Source: Halobaculum sp. XH14 (GTDB taxonomy: Archaea; Halobacteriota; Halobacteria; Halobacteriales; Haloferacaceae). From it: a stretch of 64,000 bases of DNA. The stretch lies in contig NZ_CP134951.1 of NCBI RefSeq assembly GCF_032116555.1, positions 62,001 through 126,000 of the forward strand. Reading direction: 5' to 3'. Of this stretch, positions 2,184 through 40,190 are shown piece after piece. The notes beneath the pieces are model-generated. The model was not told the DNA's origin and searched no databases. It saw only the letters and a program-made list of their open reading frames with translations. How positions within the stretch are numbered: the first letter of the stretch is position 1; every line of letters starts with the position of its first letter. The position numbers and the translations under genes were made by a program.

Positions 2184-3821
2184 GTGAGCCGACACGACTC
2201 CGATGGACTCGGGACCCTGCTCGTGGGGCTCGACGGCGCGTGCCTGCCGGTGGTCGAGCCGCTGGTCGCCGAGGGGCGACTCCCGGCGCTCGCCGACCTG
2301 CTGGACCGCGGCGCGTCGGGCCCGCTCGAATCCCAGATCCCCCCCTGGACCCCCAGCGCCTGGCCCTCGCTCTACACCGGGACGAACCCCGGGAGACACG
2401 GCGCGTTCGACTTTCTCACCTTCGACGGCTACGACTGGGACGTGGTGAACCGCTCGCACGTCCGCGAACGCGCGCTCTGGGAACTGCTCTCCGAGCGCGG
2501 CCGCCGCAGCGTCGTGGTCAACGTCCCGGTCACGTCCCCGCCCCCGGCGTTCGACGGCGCGCTCGTCCCGGGCTACATCGGCCCCGAGTCCCCCCCCACC
2601 CACCCGGAGGGGCTGCTGGACGAGCTCCGCGCGGAACTGGGCGGGTACCGCGTGTACGCGCCCGACGACGTCGAAGGGGACGAGCGGGTCGAGTGGTATC
2701 GGCGGCTTACCGGGATGCGCGGCGCCGCGTTCCGACACCTCGTCGACCGCTTCGACCCGACGTTCGGCTTCCTCCAGTTTCAACAGACCGACACGGTGTT
2801 TCACGAGCGACCCGAGGACGACGAGGCCGTCCGGGCCGTCTACGAGGCGGTCGACGCGGAGGTCGGCGCCGTCCTCGACGCCTGCGACCCGGACACGGTC
2901 GTCGTCGCCAGCGACCACGGCGTCGGTCCCTACGACCCCGAGGAGTTCCGCGTCAACGAGTTCCTCCGCGAGCGCGGCTACGTGGAGACGACGCGGGGCG
3001 AGGGAGGGATGCCCTCCTGGGGCCAGATCAGCCGGGACGCGGGCGGCGGGGACGGCGACTCGGACTCCGACGGTGACGGCCAGTCGCTCGGCGAACGCCT
3101 CGTCGCGCGCGCTGCCGCGATGGGAATCACGAGCCAGCGCATCGGCGCGCTGCTCTCGCGGCTCGGGCTGGCCGAGTTCGTGCTGGACTACGTCTCGACG
3201 GACACGGTCCGGGCCGGCACCGAGCGCGTCGACTTCACGCGCTCGACGGCGTACATGCGCTCGCGGACGGAACTGGGCGTCCGCGTCAACCTCGCGGGCC
3301 GGGAGCCGGACGGGACCGTCTCGCCCGCGGAGTACCCCAGCGTCCGCGACGACATCGTGGCCGACCTGGCGGGCGCGGAGACGCCCGCCGGCGACCCGGT
3401 GTTCTCGACGGTCGCCCCCCGCGAGGCGTTCTTCGAGGGCGAGCACGTCGAGGACGCGGCCGACGTCATCGCGGTCCCGGCCGACTTCGACACGTACCTC
3501 TCCGCCTCGCTGCTCGGCGACACCTTCGGCCCGGCGGCCGAACCGTGGAACCACAAACGCGACGGGCTGTTCGTCGCCGCCGGCGACGGCGTCGACACGG
3601 ACGCGAGCCTCCGGGACGCCCACCTCTTCGACGTCGCCCCGACGGTGCTCTCCTCGCTTGGCGTCCCACCGAGCGCCCGGATGGACGGCGACCCGCTCCC
3701 GGTCGTGGATCCGGTCCCACCCGACGACTACCCGGCGTTCGACCCGGAGGCGACGCGCCGGACCGACGACGAACGAGTCGAGCAGCGACTGGCCGATCTC
3801 GGCTATCTGGAGGACCGATGA
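2184..3821 (+). CDS. Alkaline-phosphatase-superfamily phosphohydrolase / phosphodiesterase
   Basis: This 545-residue soluble protein resembles the type I phosphodiesterase/nucleotide pyrophosphatase branch of the alkaline phosphatase superfamily. The N-terminus has the metal-binding start LLVGLDGACL, followed by IPPWTPSAWPSLYTG, where the metal-coordinating nucleophile (Ser/Thr) lies. Later come VVVASDHGVGPY (Asp-His metal ligands) and, near the C-terminus, the clustered W-x-H and LFDVAPT motifs. The GTG start was chosen because a TATA-like element lies 30 bases upstream and the sequence before it has no family similarity; an in-frame GTG at 2121 is the alternative. Its stop overlaps the start of the next gene (ATGA), so the two are translated together. 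In haloarchaea such proteins often sit near glycan or surface-polymer genes. The substrate is unknown. Confidence 0.85.
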   Translation: MSRHDSDGLGTLLVGLDGACLPVVEPLVAEGRLPALADLLDRGASGPLESQIPPWTPSAWPSLYTGTNPGRHGAFDFLTFDGYDWDVVNRSHVRERALWELLSERGRRSVVVNVPVTSPPPAFDGALVPGYIGPESPPTHPEGLLDELRAELGGYRVYAPDDVEGDERVEWYRRLTGMRGAAFRHLVDRFDPTFGFLQFQQTDTVFHERPEDDEAVRAVYEAVDAEVGAVLDACDPDTVVVASDHGVGPYDPEEFRVNEFLRERGYVETTRGEGGMPSWGQISRDAGGGDGDSDSDGDGQSLGERLVARAAAMGITSQRIGALLSRLGLAEFVLDYVSTDTVRAGTERVDFTRSTAYMRSRTELGVRVNLAGREPDGTVSPAEYPSVRDDIVADLAGAETPAGDPVFSTVAPREAFFEGEHVEDAADVIAVPADFDTYLSASLLGDTFGPAAEPWNHKRDGLFVAAGDGVDTDASLRDAHLFDVAPTVLSSLGVPPSARMDGDPLPVVDPVPPDDYPAFDPEATRRTDDERVEQRLADLGYLEDR

Positions 3822-4813
3822 GCATCGACATCCGCACGACGGACGACCGACAGTGGAACGACATCGTGAGCGACTCCCCGGCGGCGACCCCGTTTCACCG
3901 CGCGGAGGCGCTGGACGTGCTCGAGACGCACGCGAACGCCACGCTCCACCGGCTCGCGGGGTTCAAGGGCCAGGAGCCGGTGGGGCTGTTCCCCGTCTAC
4001 GAGGTCGCGAAGGGGCCGGCGACGGCGGCCGTGTCGCCCCCGCCGGACCTCAAACTCCCGTACTTGGGCCCGTCGCTCCTCAACACCGGGAAGCTCAAGC
4101 GACGCAAGCGGGACCGACGCCACCGTCGGTTCATCGACGCCGCGCTGGAGTGGGTCGAACGCGAGGTGTCCCCGAATCTCTGGAACGTCCGGACGCCGGT
4201 CGGCTACGACGACATCCGGCCGTTCCAGTGGCGTGAGTACGAGGTTTCCCCCCGATACACGTACGTCATCGACCTGGAGACGACCCCGGAGGACCTGCTC
4301 GGGCGGTTCAGCTCGGACCTGCGGAAGAAGGTCCGACGGGAGTACGACGTCAGCTACGAGGTGACCGAGGAGGGGCCGGCCGCCATCGACCGCATCGTCG
4401 AACGCACGCGGGAGCGCCACGAGGAGCAGGGCGAGTCGTTCCCCCTGACGGCCGAGTTCGTCCGGATGCTGGCCGACCGGCTTCCGGACGGAACCGTTCG
4501 GCCGTACGTCTGTCGGATCGACGGCGAGTTCGCCGGCGGCCTCATCGACGTCGAGGGGGACGAGCGTGCGGGCGCGTGGATCGCCAACGGCAAGACGGAC
4601 GCGCCGGTTCCCGTCAACGACCTGCTCGAATGGCGGGTCTGTGTCGACGGGATCGACCGCGGCCTGAGCACGTACGACCTGATGGGCGCGAACCACGAGC
4701 GCATCTACTCGTACAAGGCGAAGTTCGCCCCCGACCTGGTCCAGTACTTCACCGTCCAGAAGGGGTCGGTCGGGATGAACGCCGCCACGAAGCTCTACAA
4801 GAAACTCCGCTGA
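3818..4813 (+). CDS. FemAB/GNAT-fold acyl- or aminoacyl-transferase
   Basis: The product is a 331-residue soluble protein with the two-domain pattern of the FemAB-like/Acetyltransf_6 group, seen in polysaccharide and cell-envelope loci. Residues about 140-300 contain the core region LLGRFSSDLRKKVRREY, then FAGGLIDVEGDERAGAWIANG and YDLMGANHERIYSYKAKF, the usual second acetyltransferase fold. It starts at an ATG that overlaps the stop of the upstream phosphohydrolase by four bases, so it belongs to the same operon. A role in decorating a surface glycan or lipid is inferred from family and neighbour only. The donor and acceptor are not known. Confidence 0.8.
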   Translation: MSIDIRTTDDRQWNDIVSDSPAATPFHRAEALDVLETHANATLHRLAGFKGQEPVGLFPVYEVAKGPATAAVSPPPDLKLPYLGPSLLNTGKLKRRKRDRRHRRFIDAALEWVEREVSPNLWNVRTPVGYDDIRPFQWREYEVSPRYTYVIDLETTPEDLLGRFSSDLRKKVRREYDVSYEVTEEGPAAIDRIVERTRERHEEQGESFPLTAEFVRMLADRLPDGTVRPYVCRIDGEFAGGLIDVEGDERAGAWIANGKTDAPVPVNDLLEWRVCVDGIDRGLSTYDLMGANHERIYSYKAKFAPDLVQYFTVQKGSVGMNAATKLYKKLR

Positions 4814-5009
4814 CAGGTGGGCCACGTCGAGTCGACTCCGGCGGCCCTCCGCCGGCGTAAGCCGAGCGTACCGGACGACGGCGGAGGGTGCCGAAGCCGA
4901 CGAACGGTCCACTGAAAACCAGCGAACTGGGGAAAACTGGGTTTCAGCCGCACTTACGTCCGAACACGCCCTTCATACCAAAGTGGCAACCCGTCGTACG
5001 CCAGCGGGC

Positions 5010-5444
5010 ATGCCAGACATCGACCGTCGGAAACTGCTCGGACTCGCAGCGACAGGACTGGCAGCCGGGCTGGCCGGCTGTGGCTCTCCCGGCACGGACG
5101 AGGGCACCGAACCGCTCGAAACGGAGACGGTGGGCGACGGAGCGGAGACGGAGGAGGAGACGCCGACGGAGACGGAGGCCGAAACCCCGACCGAGGCCGA
5201 GGACGCGACCGAAACCGAGGCGGAGGCCGGGGTGGGCAACGAGACTGAGACGGAGATGGGTACGGAGACGGAGGTCGGAGTGGGTAACGAGACGGAGATG
5301 GGCAACGAGACGGAAATGGGTAACGAGACTGAAACGGAGATGGGTACGGAGACGGCAATGGGCAACGAAACCGGGACGGAGACGGCAATGGGTAACGAAA
5401 CCGAGACGGCAATGGGTAACGAGACGGAGACGGAGACGGCCTGA
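5010..5444 (+). CDS. Tat lipoprotein with a repeated Gly-Asn-Glu-Thr tail
   Basis: This 144-residue lipoprotein has a twin-arginine signal with lipobox at the N-terminus (DRRKLLGLAA then GLAGC), so the mature protein should be anchored by the lipidated cysteine outside the cell. Everything after the cysteine is low complexity: first E/T-rich, then seven copies of G-N-E-T mixed with M-G-T-E-T units. N-E-T is an N-glycosylation sequon, so the tail could be densely glycosylated. The ATG was chosen because it places the arginine pair close to the N-terminus; an upstream in-frame GTG at 4983 is possible. No catalytic domain is present. A hairpin sits on the stop codon. Confidence 0.75.
   Translation: MPDIDRRKLLGLAATGLAAGLAGCGSPGTDEGTEPLETETVGDGAETEEETPTETEAETPTEAEDATETEAEAGVGNETETEMGTETEVGVGNETEMGNETEMGNETETEMGTETAMGNETGTETAMGNETETAMGNETETETA
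5236..5442 (+). repeat. Tandem 18-21 base units coding for GNETE/MGTETE
   Basis: Imperfect tandem units of the form GGTAACGAGACGGAGATG repeat to the stop codon. Each codes for a Gly-Asn-Glu-Thr-Glu block or a Met-Gly-Thr-Glu-Thr block. The near identity at DNA level suggests slippage and possible length variation between strains. Confidence 0.85.
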
Positions 5445-36253: not shown

Positions 36254-36271
36254 GTTCGCTCTCACCGAACG
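36254..36271. promoter_or_regulatory. IclR-type operator candidate, site 3
   Basis: GTTCGCTCTCACCGAACG matches site 1 (GTTCGGTGACACCGAACG) at 15 of 18 positions. It lies between the IclR stop and the second CoA ligase, upstream of the ligase TATA element. Confidence 0.5.
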
Positions 36272-36285
36272 GGGATGACGGTCGC

Positions 36286-37053
36286 CTACCGGTAGGCGAG
36301 GTTGAGTTCGACGTCGTTGGTCGAGGCCCGCAGGCGCTCGGCGAGGTCGGTCTCGCAGCGCTCCCGGCTGACGCGGTGGGCGGGGCCGGCGACCGCGAGC
36401 GCGCCGTGGACGGACTCTTCGAACACGAGCGGGACCGCGACGGCGTGGATCCCCTCCAGGTCCTCGCCGAGGTTCAGCCCGTACCCCTGCTCGCGGACGC
36501 GCTCGAGTTCGGCGAGCAGCGCGTCCGGGTCGGTGATGGTGTTGTCCGTCCGCGCCGGCAGGCCGTGGGCGTCGATGATCTCCCGGACCTCGGATTCGGG
36601 AAGCTGTGCGAGGATCGCCTTCCCCCCCGAGTTGCAGTGCATGTACGCCCACGAACCGATGAGCGTGTTGGCGTTGATGTTGGTGCGACCGGCTCGGCCG
36701 TAGAGATACATCAGTCGACCGTTCTCGTGGGCGAGCAGCCAGGCCATCTCCCCCGTCGACTCCACGAGGTCGTCCACGATGGGCTTTGCCGCCTCGTACA
36801 CGTCGTACTGGTTGCGGACGTACTGGCCGTAGCTGAAAAACTGCAGGCCGAGGTGGTAGGTGTCGCCGCGCTTCTCCACGAAGTCGTGGGCCAGCAGCGA
36901 CGCGAGGTGGTCGTGGACCGTGCTCTTCGCGAACCCCGTCCGCGCCGCCAGCTCGGTGACGCCCATCCCGTCGGCCTCGCGGAGCTGTTCGATGATGGAG
37001 AATAGCGTCTCGTCCGATCTCACCCCCCTTCCGTCCGTGGTCTCTCTGGGCAT
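36286..37053 (-). CDS. IclR-family transcriptional regulator (copy 1)
   Basis: This 255-residue regulator has an N-terminal winged helix (GMGVTELAARTGFAKSTVHDHLASLLAHDFV) and a C-terminal IclR/GAF-like effector domain beginning near residue 80, with LPARTDNTITDPDALLAELERVREQGYG. Such regulators control aromatic acid genes by binding pathway acids. Two nearly identical palindromes lie in its own upstream region and a third downstream before the ligase gene, so self-regulation and ligase control are likely. TATA-like TTTAGTAG is about 28 bases before the ATG. Confidence 0.92.
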   Translation of the reverse strand: MPRETTDGRGVRSDETLFSIIEQLREADGMGVTELAARTGFAKSTVHDHLASLLAHDFVEKRGDTYHLGLQFFSYGQYVRNQYDVYEAAKPIVDDLVESTGEMAWLLAHENGRLMYLYGRAGRTNINANTLIGSWAYMHCNSGGKAILAQLPESEVREIIDAHGLPARTDNTITDPDALLAELERVREQGYGLNLGEDLEGIHAVAVPLVFEESVHGALAVAGPAHRVSRERCETDLAERLRASTNDVELNLAYR

Positions 37054-37180
37054 ACTCGAACCCAGTGACGCCTGCTACTAAACTCTTCAGCCCGTGCGGC
37101 CGGCGGCGACACGGCCTCCTGGCGTCGTTTCCCCGGGAATCAGCAGCGTCTGATATCCACGTTCCGTCTCTCGATTTTGG

Positions 37181-37195
37181 TTCGGTCAGACCGAA
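37181..37195. promoter_or_regulatory. IclR-type operator candidate, site 2 (TTCGGTC-A-GACCGAA)
   Basis: A perfect 15-base palindrome continued by CGAA, 128-142 bases upstream of the IclR start. It shares TTCGGT-N3-ACCGAACGAA with site 1. Confidence 0.6.
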
Positions 37196-37291
37196 CGAAC
37201 TGTCGTGTTCGTTCACGTTGGTTCGAATCGTCACGAAAATTCCCCCGATTCGGCGAGATTCGGAACCCCTCGCCGCGGTGATCGGTCACTA

Positions 37292-37308
37292 GTTCGGTGA
37301 CACCGAAC
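37292..37308. promoter_or_regulatory. IclR-type operator candidate, site 1 (GTTCGGTG-A-CACCGAAC)
   Basis: A perfect 17-base palindrome, also followed by GAA, in the same intergenic region as site 2. Spacing between the centres of the two sites is 112 bases. Confidence 0.6.
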
Positions 37309-37497: not shown

Positions 37498-39450
37498 CTA
37501 CGCGGCGAGCTCCTCGACGTAGTTGCGGTCCTCGGAGAGCGCCTCGGCGTCCTCCGGGAGCAGCGCGACGACGAAGTACTCGGCGTGCTCCTCCAGGTAG
37601 TCGACGACCCGGGCGATGCGGTCCGAGTCGATTGCCTCCAGGGAGTCGAGCACGATGAACGGCAGCTCCTCGTACACGTCGTGGACGAGATAGCCCGCGA
37701 GCGCGAACACGAGTCCCGTCACCTCGCGCTCGCTCTCGGAGAGGTGGTCGACCGTGTCCCGGTAGGACTGGCCGTCGTCGGTCGAGCGGATGATGTGCAG
37801 GTCGAACTCGGGGCGGGTCACCTTTCTGCGCCCCTCGCGCACCTCGCGCTCGCGCCGCTCGATCCAGATGCGCTCGATGTTCTCGTACTGCAGGATGTCG
37901 AGGACGGCGTCCATGTGGTCGTTGAACGACTCGACGGCGTCCTCCTCGATGCGGTCGACGCGCGTCCGCAGCTCGGTGAGCTCCTCGGCGATCTGCTCGC
38001 GCTCCTCCTCGAGCCCCTCGACGTCGGCGACGGCGTCCTCGCGCTCCTGGATGCGGCCCTCGACGCCCTCGAGCTCGGATTCGAGCCGTTCGATGCGGAG
38101 CTCGAGCTCGTTGGCGCGGCGGTGCTTCTCGATGACCTCGTCGTAGTCGCCCTCGCCGACGCGCTCGGTCTCGTCCTCGAGCTCCTCGACGACCTCGGCC
38201 TGCTCCTCGCGTGCGGATTCGAGCTCGTCGATGCGCTCCTGGGTGGCCTCGATCTCGCTCTCGATCTCGTCGAGCCGTCGCTCGGCGCGCTCGCGCTCCC
38301 GGCGGGACCGCTCGATTTCGGACCGTTCGCTGGAGAGCTCGTCGATCCGGCTCCGTATCTCGTTGCGCTCGTCGAGCTTCTCCTTGCGGATCTCCGAGAG
38401 CAGGTCGACCGTCTCGGCGATGCGGTCGCGCTCGACTTCCGAGCCGCACGTCCAGCAGACCGTCTGTTCGCTCTCGTCGACGAGCTGGTCGGTGACGGCC
38501 CCGTCGTCGCCGGTCGGATCCCCGTTCAGGTCGAGATCGAGCCCGTCGCCGTCGAGCATCTCCTCGTTGAAGCTGATGACGCTCTGGAGCTCACCCAGCG
38601 TGTCGTCGAGCGCGCGCTTTCGCCGCCTGGCGTCGGCGATTCGGTCGGCGATCGCCTCGGGGTCCCGCTCGGCCTCCTCGCTCTCCGCCAGGGTCTCCTC
38701 GAGCGACTCCCGTTCCGCCTCCAGTTCGTCCAGGCTCGTCCGCTCGGCCTCGACGTCGAACTCCACGTCCTCGAGCTCCGAGCGCGCCTCGCGGAGGTTC
38801 TGGAACGCCTGCTCGATGTCCTCCTTGCGCGACCGGCTCTCCTCGAGGTCCGCGTCGAGCTCGTCGATCTCCGCCTGCACGGCCTCGCGCTCCTCGCGCG
38901 CCTCCGCGAGCTTCTCCTGGATCCCGGTGCGCTCGGCTTCCAGGTCCGGCAGCTCGCTCTCGAGCCGTTCGAACTCCTCGATGCGGTCGTCGATCTCGTT
39001 CTTCTCGCGCTCGCGTTCGGCGATCTCGGCCTCGATGCGGTCCGTGTCGATGGGCCGCATGATGATCTCGCGGAGGTCGTCGCCGCGCTCGACCGCGCGG
39101 CGCACCTCGTTGTTCTCGAGCAGGAACGCGAACATGTCCGCGAGCTGCGGGTCCTCGAGGTACGGATCGCCGTCGAAGACGACGGTGTCGCCCCGGCGCG
39201 TCAGCGTCCGCGTGCAGGTCTGGTCGCCGAACTCGAGCTCCACGCGCCCCTCGTCGGCGTCGCCCTTGAGGGACGGCTTCTCGCTGCCGAGTCCCGCCAT
39301 GATCGCCTGCAGGAACGACGTTCGGTTGGTCGCGTTTCGCCCGCTGAGAACGGTCACCCCCGGCGGAAGCGTCACCTCAGCCTGGTCGATGCCGCCGATG
39401 TTGTGCGCCCGGATGTGGACGTCCTGTCGCGTGAGTTCCGTCGATTCCAT
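37498..39450 (-). CDS. Archaeal SMC-related coiled-coil protein
   Basis: This 650-residue Rad50/SMC-like protein has an N-terminal nucleotide-binding half, long heptad coiled coils (about 135-290 and 340-510), a central Cys-Trp-Thr-Cys (332-335) like a zinc hook, and a C-terminal head. The motifs are degenerate: Walker A reads GRNATNRTS (37-45), with Arg for the essential Lys; the signature is LSESERE (570-576), and Walker B FIVLDS (598-603) lacks the usual following Glu. This matches the archaea-specific SMC-related group, which in haloarchaea occurs beside RdfA, as here. It may be a structural or DNA-organising protein with altered ATP use. A TATA-like CAGTTAAGC lies about 27 bases before the ATG. 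Confidence 0.88.
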   Translation of the reverse strand: MESTELTRQDVHIRAHNIGGIDQAEVTLPPGVTVLSGRNATNRTSFLQAIMAGLGSEKPSLKGDADEGRVELEFGDQTCTRTLTRRGDTVVFDGDPYLEDPQLADMFAFLLENNEVRRAVERGDDLREIIMRPIDTDRIEAEIAEREREKNEIDDRIEEFERLESELPDLEAERTGIQEKLAEAREEREAVQAEIDELDADLEESRSRKEDIEQAFQNLREARSELEDVEFDVEAERTSLDELEAERESLEETLAESEEAERDPEAIADRIADARRRKRALDDTLGELQSVISFNEEMLDGDGLDLDLNGDPTGDDGAVTDQLVDESEQTVCWTCGSEVERDRIAETVDLLSEIRKEKLDERNEIRSRIDELSSERSEIERSRRERERAERRLDEIESEIEATQERIDELESAREEQAEVVEELEDETERVGEGDYDEVIEKHRRANELELRIERLESELEGVEGRIQEREDAVADVEGLEEEREQIAEELTELRTRVDRIEEDAVESFNDHMDAVLDILQYENIERIWIERREREVREGRRKVTRPEFDLHIIRSTDDGQSYRDTVDHLSESEREVTGLVFALAGYLVHDVYEELPFIVLDSLEAIDSDRIARVVDYLEEHAEYFVVALLPEDAEALSEDRNYVEELAA

Positions 39451-39587
39451 CGTAACATGTTGTTGATTTCACGGGCTTAACTGTTTTTCTTCTCGTAAGA
39501 ACCGGTCCCGCCGGTCCCGCCGCCCGTGACCGTCAGGCCCGCCGACCGCGCTTCGACAGGAGCGAACGCCCCCGGTTCGTCGGCCGA

Positions 39588-40190
39588 TCAGCAGTCGCAG
39601 CCGCCCTGCCTGATGAGCTCGCCGACGGCATAGCCCGTGCCACACTCGCTGCAGACGACCTGGATGTCGACGAACACCTCGTACTCGCGGTCGGTCAGGT
39701 CCTCCGAGTTCACCAGCCCCTCGATGGTCGACTCAGCGACGACCGAGGTGCGCCCCTGGAGCCGTTCGAGCGTCTCGATCTTCCGCTGGACGCGGTCGGC
39801 AGAGCGGTCCGGCAGCTCGGCGTCGCGGTACTTCGTCAGGTACGTGTGGATCGCCTGGTGGGTGACGAAGTCGTCGCGGACCCGATCCACGTCGACGCCG
39901 TCCTGTTCGAGTTCGCGGCGCTTGCGCATCCGGTCGGCCTCGGAGACGTCGTCGCCGGTGAGCACGTCGTAGGTCGTCTCCACGTCGCTCGACAGGGCGG
40001 TCCCGCCGGAGTCTGTGATGGCCGACTCGAGCACGCTCCGGTTGAACTCGTCCGCGAGGTCCCGGAGGCTCGTGCGCTCCCCGCCGTCGCCCGTCCAGCT
40101 CGCCTCGAGTCGCTCCCCCATCCCGACCAGGTCGTACTCGTCGATGACGCGTGCGACCTTGCTGTTCCGCTGGGGACCGGATGTCGTCAT
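39588..40190 (-). CDS. rdfA: RdfA-like protein (rod-determining factor family)
   Basis: The 200-residue protein has the full-length pattern of the haloarchaeal rod-determining factor family: NSKVARVIDEYDLVGMGERLEASWTG near the N-terminus, a middle EADRMRKRRELEQDGVDVDRV helix pair and a C-terminal Cys cluster CSECGTGYAVGELIRQGGCDC. RdfA controls cell shape in Haloferax volcanii. This copy, like others, is followed on the same strand by an SMC-related gene, so the two may be partners. A TATA-like CCTTTGTAATG lies about 30 bases before the ATG. Whether this copy affects shape or another process is unknown, since haloarchaea carry several paralogues. Confidence 0.8.
   Translation of the reverse strand: MTTSGPQRNSKVARVIDEYDLVGMGERLEASWTGDGGERTSLRDLADEFNRSVLESAITDSGGTALSSDVETTYDVLTGDDVSEADRMRKRRELEQDGVDVDRVRDDFVTHQAIHTYLTKYRDAELPDRSADRVQRKIETLERLQGRTSVVAESTIEGLVNSEDLTDREYEVFVDIQVVCSECGTGYAVGELIRQGGCDC

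Follow-up and report, generated by a model that had tools for sequence, protein, structure and literature searches.

Introduction

Proteins of the SMC superfamily are understood as ATP-driven machines. The archaea-specific SMC-related proteins (ASRPs), an archaeal clade of this superfamily delimited in 2022, include coalescin (ClsN) of Sulfolobus and the Sph proteins of haloarchaea (PMC9389158). They were described as ATPases with Walker A and Walker B motifs and no consensus neighbour genes (Yoshinaga et al. 2022, PMC9389158). Coalescin brings inactive loci together (PMC9389158, PMC11946384).

Genetic data on the haloarchaeal members come from Haloferax. In H. volcanii, sph3 and rdfA are adjacent, and loss of either gene leaves only disk-shaped, non-motile cells, with shape altered and growth unimpaired; SMC-like genes, 50 of them across 24 genomes, adjoin an RdfA-family gene in 42 cases (PMC10869688). 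The requirement for rod shape is known for the Haloferax RdfA only (PMC10869688). Each of the four Sph proteins has a bearing on intermolecular gene conversion; a joint deletion of sph2 and sph4 is not possible, and deletion of sph2 gives rods (PMC11276520). A separate paper describes Sph3 as maintaining plate shape (PMC13286277), the opposite of the disk-only phenotype of the sph3 deletion in PMC10869688.

The rdfA-ASRP locus

The two genes lie in a window of 64,000 nucleotides (the whole stretch of DNA analysed here), on a replicon of 196,099 bp in a genome of 3.68 Mb. A preliminary description, made from the sequence alone, had proposed an SMC-related protein next to an RdfA-like gene, and profile searches bear out both identities. 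The first is an ASRP, matching profile NF045487 over positions 1-593 of 593 (687.8 bits against a cut-off of 300, E 1.3e-206), and the second is a true RdfA, matching PF21811 over positions 1-194 of 195 (251.2 bits against a gathering cut-off of 27, E 8.9e-75), with a start that agrees with the annotated 603-bp Halobaculum orthologue. Their orientation and spacing (Table 1) make co-transcription possible. A single ASRP above the cut-off and a single RdfA were counted in the whole genome, and by this profile search the pair is the sole Sph/RdfA module of its host, probably a Halobaculum-like haloarchaeon.

Table 1. Features of the rdfA-ASRP locus, with positions in the window
Feature	Position	Strand	Basis
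rdfA, rod-determining factor A family, 200 aa	39588-40190	-	PF21811 profile match and AlphaFold2 model
Gap of 137 bp between rdfA and the ASRP gene, same strand	39451-39587	-	
ASRP / Sph-type SMC-related protein, 650 aa	37498-39450	-	NF045487 profile match and AlphaFold2 head model
Degenerate Walker A GRNATNRTS, residues 37-45, Arg43 for Lys	39316-39342	-	Coordinates from residue numbers
Zinc-hook CWTC, residues 332-335	38446-38457	-	
Signature LSESERE, residues 570-576	37723-37743	-	
Walker B FIVLDSLEAID, residues 598-608, Ser603 for catalytic Glu, Asp602 and D-loop Asp608 kept	37627-37659	-	

The nearest public relatives are plasmids of Halobaculum halophilum (84% identity, syntenic) and of Halobaculum salinum (78%); on both, RefSeq already gives the two genes the names 'rod-determining factor RdfA' and 'archaea-specific SMC-related protein'. 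Relatives are present in 112 public plasmid records, and many haloarchaeal ASRP copies are chromosomal. The pair is thus no module of unknown kind; it is an ordinary copy of the known haloarchaeal Sph/RdfA module published in Haloferax.

As first described, the pair sits between two IclR regulators, beyond which are an AMP-binding enzyme and an M20 peptidase, with transport genes in the flanks. The suggested link to a catabolic island is not supported, the pair lying in unrelated neighbourhoods in other haloarchaea. A function through the catabolic neighbourhood was also rejected, given that Halobaculum salinum keeps rdfA-ASRP without the upstream IclR/M20/transporter block. On pNRC200 of H. 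salinarum an IclR-family regulator likewise adjoins rdfA-sph1, possibly by coincidence.

Two near-perfect copies of the palindrome GTTCGGT(S)T(S)ACCGAAC (37180-37196 and 37292-37308) are found upstream of the IclR gene at 36286-37053, and a third, with one mismatch (36254-36270), lies between that gene and the AMP-binding gene. With six strand matches against 0.13 expected, this palindrome is likely to be an IclR operator. Elsewhere in the window, positions 5121-5440 are densely packed with imperfect tandem repeats (periods of 6 to 60, consensus like GAGACGGAAATGGGTAACGAG) and probably belong to a coding region of repetitive sequence.

ATPase motifs

The residues singled out in the preliminary description were all read in the translation: Arg43 in place of the Walker A Lys, a signature of LSESERE, a Walker B motif in which LDS puts Ser603 at the Glu position, and an intact CWTC hook, accompanied by a coiled coil in the AlphaFold2 model. 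Its broader statement, that every ABC motif is degenerate, is right for the Walker A Gly-Lys, the catalytic Glu and the GG of the signature, all of which are lost, and wrong for Ser45, Asp602, Ser571 and the D-loop Asp608, which are kept and are invariant in the clade. Where an ATPase is recognised by GK[ST] in Walker A and DE in Walker B, the window protein and its clade have NR and DS. Since the founding member, H. salinarum Sph2, itself has GR and DS, canonical motifs cannot define the ASRP clade. To judge from these motifs, this haloarchaeal clade should not inherit the label 'ATPase'.

Conservation across Halobacteria

The altered motifs are shared by the close relatives of the window protein, contrary to a situation in which canonical relatives surround a single damaged copy. 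Among the window protein and 55 haloarchaeal relatives, GRNATNRTS and CWTC are identical in 56/56 and LSESERE in 55/56. A larger alignment of 158 sequences, which takes in divergent members and a few outgroup proteins and is unreadable at the motif columns in two, has Arg at the Walker A Lys position in 128, and every one of these (128/128) has Ser at the catalytic Glu position. Within this Arg-type set 38 of 650 columns are invariant, including Arg43, Ser571, Glu574, Asp602, Ser603, Glu605 and Asp608, and the zinc hook is CxxC throughout (128/128) and CWTC in 124.

A class-wide search with a back-translated DNA pattern recovered GxNATNRTS from 320 of 391 Halobacteria genomes and 77 of 86 genera, written in many different synonymous codons; the reversed-pattern control gave one match in 391 genomes, so the motif does not recur by chance. 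Measured against Halobaculum orthologues, dN/dS is 0.25-0.26 for the ASRP and 0.15-0.25 for RdfA, and there are no stops within the window ASRP gene. The alignment check that the preliminary description had proposed thus finds Arg for Lys throughout the haloarchaeal Sph2-4 clade, with Lys kept in the Sph1 subfamily, which argues that the window gene is not decaying. We conclude from these alignments that the Arg and Ser replacements are a fixed, strongly conserved feature of the clade, and not damage. In the literature searched, chiefly openly accessible papers, no text says that the catalytic motifs of Sph proteins are altered; their conserved, clade-wide loss is apparently the unremarked part, and is worth following up.

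Origin and probable order of the motif loss

Outside Halobacteria, in other classes of the same phylum, seven of nine ASRPs keep both GK and DE and the other two have DN, so that the loss is derived. Of the haloarchaeal ASRPs read at the motif columns, none has the Walker B Glu. Another subfamily in the haloarchaea, with proteins of about 600-645 aa and with H. salinarum Sph1 as a member, keeps GKSS and has a signature of LSEGE, with Gly, Arg or Gln at the Walker B Glu position. Most sequences have NRTS and LDS, and two have NK and DA. In a FastTree phylogeny of 97 sequences, the simplest order of events would be loss of Glu first, in the haloarchaeal ancestor, followed by replacement of GK with GR or NR in the Sph2-4 branch, the deepest Arg-type node having a modest support of 0.77 and its main part 1.0. 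The change of the signature from LSGG to LSxSE is also found in ASRPs with intact Walker motifs; it is therefore a family-wide feature that predates the loss of catalysis.

In Haloferax-like genomes, placed in that genus through a sister locus with 91% identity to a named Haloferax, chromosomal and plasmid ASRPs beside rdfA carry GRNATNRTS and LDS. One paralogue there (L203 ~2937-5081, L204 ~3038-5182) has drifted further, to GRNAADRTP and LPASERE, and keeps both the hook and the rdfA neighbour.

RdfA as a companion of ASRP

In the genome-wide co-occurrence check that had been suggested at the outset, RdfA is present in all 342 ASRP-carrying genomes, the count of zero for ASRP alone coming from a by-eye comparison of two listings; RdfA occurs alone in eight genomes, three with marginal E-values, and neither gene is found in 41 (Fisher p 7e-48, phylogeny ignored). 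At 72 of 84 haloarchaeal ASRP loci RdfA lies within the fetched stretch, usually at 250 bp or less, mostly upstream and on the same strand, and the 12 at which none was found include some covered by 1.5-kb flanks only. By these counts RdfA is a near-obligate genomic companion of ASRP.

The association extends beyond the altered proteins. RdfA-like genes lie directly downstream of three intact-motif ASRPs outside Halobacteria (L073, L075, L077), and in one such genome, with an intact-motif ASRP and an RdfA-like gene, the Pfam RdfA profile matches with E 1.3e-8; the partnership is therefore older than the loss of catalysis and predates the haloarchaea. Tree distances of RdfA and of ASRP are correlated (r 0.92, 73 pairs; highest value under permutation 0.30), also inside Sph2-4 (0.87), values inflated by common descent, and the RdfA partners of Sph1-type ASRPs group as a single clade. 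Co-occurrence and mirrored trees are partly products of shared ancestry, and direct contact between ASRP and RdfA is putative.

Predicted structures

The AlphaFold2 model of the ASRP (pLDDT 87) has a strand, P-loop and helix at Walker A, then a coiled coil leading out to the hook and returning to a C-terminal lobe; the N- and C-terminal lobes together form an ABC/SMC head fold. The model aligns with the heads of Rad50 and SMC proteins at a VIA Z of about 20, indicating that the head is kept as a folded and presumably dimerising module. RdfA (pLDDT 92) is predicted to comprise a helical domain, a long helix at residues 131-162 and a small C-terminal cysteine module, in which CxxC...CxC is a putative zinc site. 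Searches with RdfA gave no sequence match to solved structures, no Foldseek match and no viral match, and its best hit among known folds, at a VIA Z of 4.4, is unconvincing.

Proposed mechanism and alternatives

The conserved motif changes suggest that ATP hydrolysis plays no part in the work of these SMC relatives. Our favoured reading, which we regard as moderately probable, is that the window ASRP is a non-hydrolysing zinc-hook clamp or scaffold of the SMC/Rad50 kind with RdfA as its partner, acting probably in cell shape or in the organisation of the genome. A pocket that has lost Lys and Glu and kept its Mg-binding Ser, Walker B Asp and signature Ser suits an architectural role, or a tightly held nucleotide, better than turnover. 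Replacement of a P-loop Lys by Arg often permits binding and not hydrolysis, and Glu mutants of SMC and ABC proteins stay engaged; this behaviour points to a stable hook-and-head clamp with RdfA as a regulatory or tethering subunit. ATP binding persists in some P-loop proteins with Arg for Lys, and a few rely on different residues for catalysis; the absence of hydrolysis is thus something that we infer.

By sequence, the Walker A Lys and Walker B Glu were replaced early in the haloarchaeal lineage, and Arg and Ser are now fixed. In the proposed mechanism the ASRP would dimerise through its zinc hook and probably also through its heads, which, with Ser45, Asp602 and the signature Ser571 remaining, could engage without nucleotide or around a nucleotide that ASRP cannot hydrolyse. 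The outcome would be a static clamp or scaffold, not an ATP-driven motor. RdfA would bind ASRP and either regulate it or link it to DNA, membrane or cytoskeleton, and the output would be cell shape and motility and/or the holding of chromosome copies, as for Sph2-4 of Haloferax. The target of the clamp may be DNA, which is the case for coalescin, or part of the cytoskeleton, or the two together. The role in shape or DNA organisation first suggested for this pair fits the published Haloferax genetics (PMC10869688, PMC11276520).

That the ASRP still hydrolyses ATP, or is switched by it, in a non-canonical pocket where Arg43 touches the phosphates and a different acidic side chain, for instance Glu605, stands in for the missing Glu, seems to us unlikely. 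Arg for Lys is a conservative change, the Mg-binding Ser45, Asp602, Ser571 and Asp608 are invariant, and so is Glu605 in the Arg-type clade; but both catalytic positions are altered, Glu605 lies two positions past the catalytic one, in a column where intact-motif relatives have Thr or the like, and in the Sph1 subfamily, where Lys is kept, the Glu is lost too and none has been gained at the Glu605 position. Rescue in a heterodimer by a second ASRP supplying the catalytic residues was considered and rejected, the genome having no second ASRP. A role mainly in organising DNA, with the protein bridging chromosome or plasmid copies and the Haloferax shape effects being indirect, is plausible, if somewhat doubtful. 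Coalescin, which gathers inactive loci, belongs to the same family (PMC9389158, PMC11946384), all Haloferax Sph proteins affect intermolecular gene conversion (PMC11276520), and the window copy lies on a 196-kb replicon with relatives on many plasmids. Against this, deletion of sph3 or rdfA alters shape without a growth defect (PMC10869688), many copies are chromosomal, and no DNA-binding datum was found for the clade.

Two further readings fare much worse. Defence, which the preliminary description had entertained, taken here as an anti-phage module akin to the SMC-like Lamassu LmuB or Wadjet JetC, is highly improbable: the PADLOC matches that would favour it (best LmuB, E 4e-19) are weak beside the ASRP match and fall mostly in the coiled coil, no nuclease, effector or other defence gene adjoins the pair in the window or the annotated relatives examined, and the pair is near-universal in Halobacteria and under purifying selection, not patchy, with a partner whose published phenotype concerns shape (PMC10869688). 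Decay of a damaged copy has a negligible chance of being correct; the altered catalytic motifs and the position as sole copy in the genome, on a secondary replicon, might bring it to mind, but the same residues are fixed clade-wide, the frame is free of stops, dN/dS is about 0.25, and synteny with Halobaculum plasmids is preserved.

Taken more widely, the clamp reading implies that an SMC-superfamily lineage that is near-universal in Halobacteria, and partly essential in Haloferax, gave up ATP hydrolysis stepwise (Glu, then GK to GR or NR) and was rebuilt with RdfA as a permanently engaged, ATP-independent or ATP-locked clamp or scaffold for shape or genome copies, a proposal on which we are evenly divided. 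If the Sph proteins of Halobacteria are indeed conserved, non-hydrolysing and needed for rod shape and for exchange between genome copies, ATP hydrolysis would be dispensable for an important SMC-like function, and the annotation 'ATPase' would mislead for this clade. Haloferax volcanii, with its tractable genetics, allows a direct test of the idea, and RdfA, with no recognised fold match, emerges as the companion subunit to study.

Comparison with known systems

The window ASRP has in common with Rad50 and SMC proteins its head fold, and with Rad50 a CxxC zinc hook. Unlike them it lacks LSGG, the Lys of Walker A and the Glu of Walker B, is about 650 aa long, and has no identified Mre11 or kleisin partner. 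With the ASRP family NF045487, including coalescin, it has in common the head, coiled coil, zinc hook and archaeal clade; in contrast to ASRPs as described in PMC9389158 (coalescin being compared by description), the residues of catalysis are here lost clade-wide and RdfA is the consensus neighbour.

Among the closest described systems is Sph3 (HVO_2175) with RdfA (HVO_2174) of Haloferax volcanii, in which the same two families lie side by side; the altered motifs are not discussed in the accessible portion of that paper (Nat Commun 2024, PMC10869688). A likely Sph3 orthologue, chromosomal and beside rdfA in Haloferax-like genomes, has identical GRNATNRTS, LSESERE and LDS motifs and is 46% identical to the window ASRP, from which it differs in replicon and neighbourhood. 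Identity to the Haloferax paralogues is only 44-49% and the exact orthologue is ambiguous, so that the function in shape is transferred by family and not by orthology. On pNRC200 of H. salinarum both subfamilies are represented: Sph2 likewise lacks Lys and Glu (GRNATGRTS, LSESERE, LDS), whereas Sph1, of the second subfamily, keeps Lys (NFQGKSS) and has LSEGE and Gly for Glu (LDG), and rdfA lies upstream of both genes.
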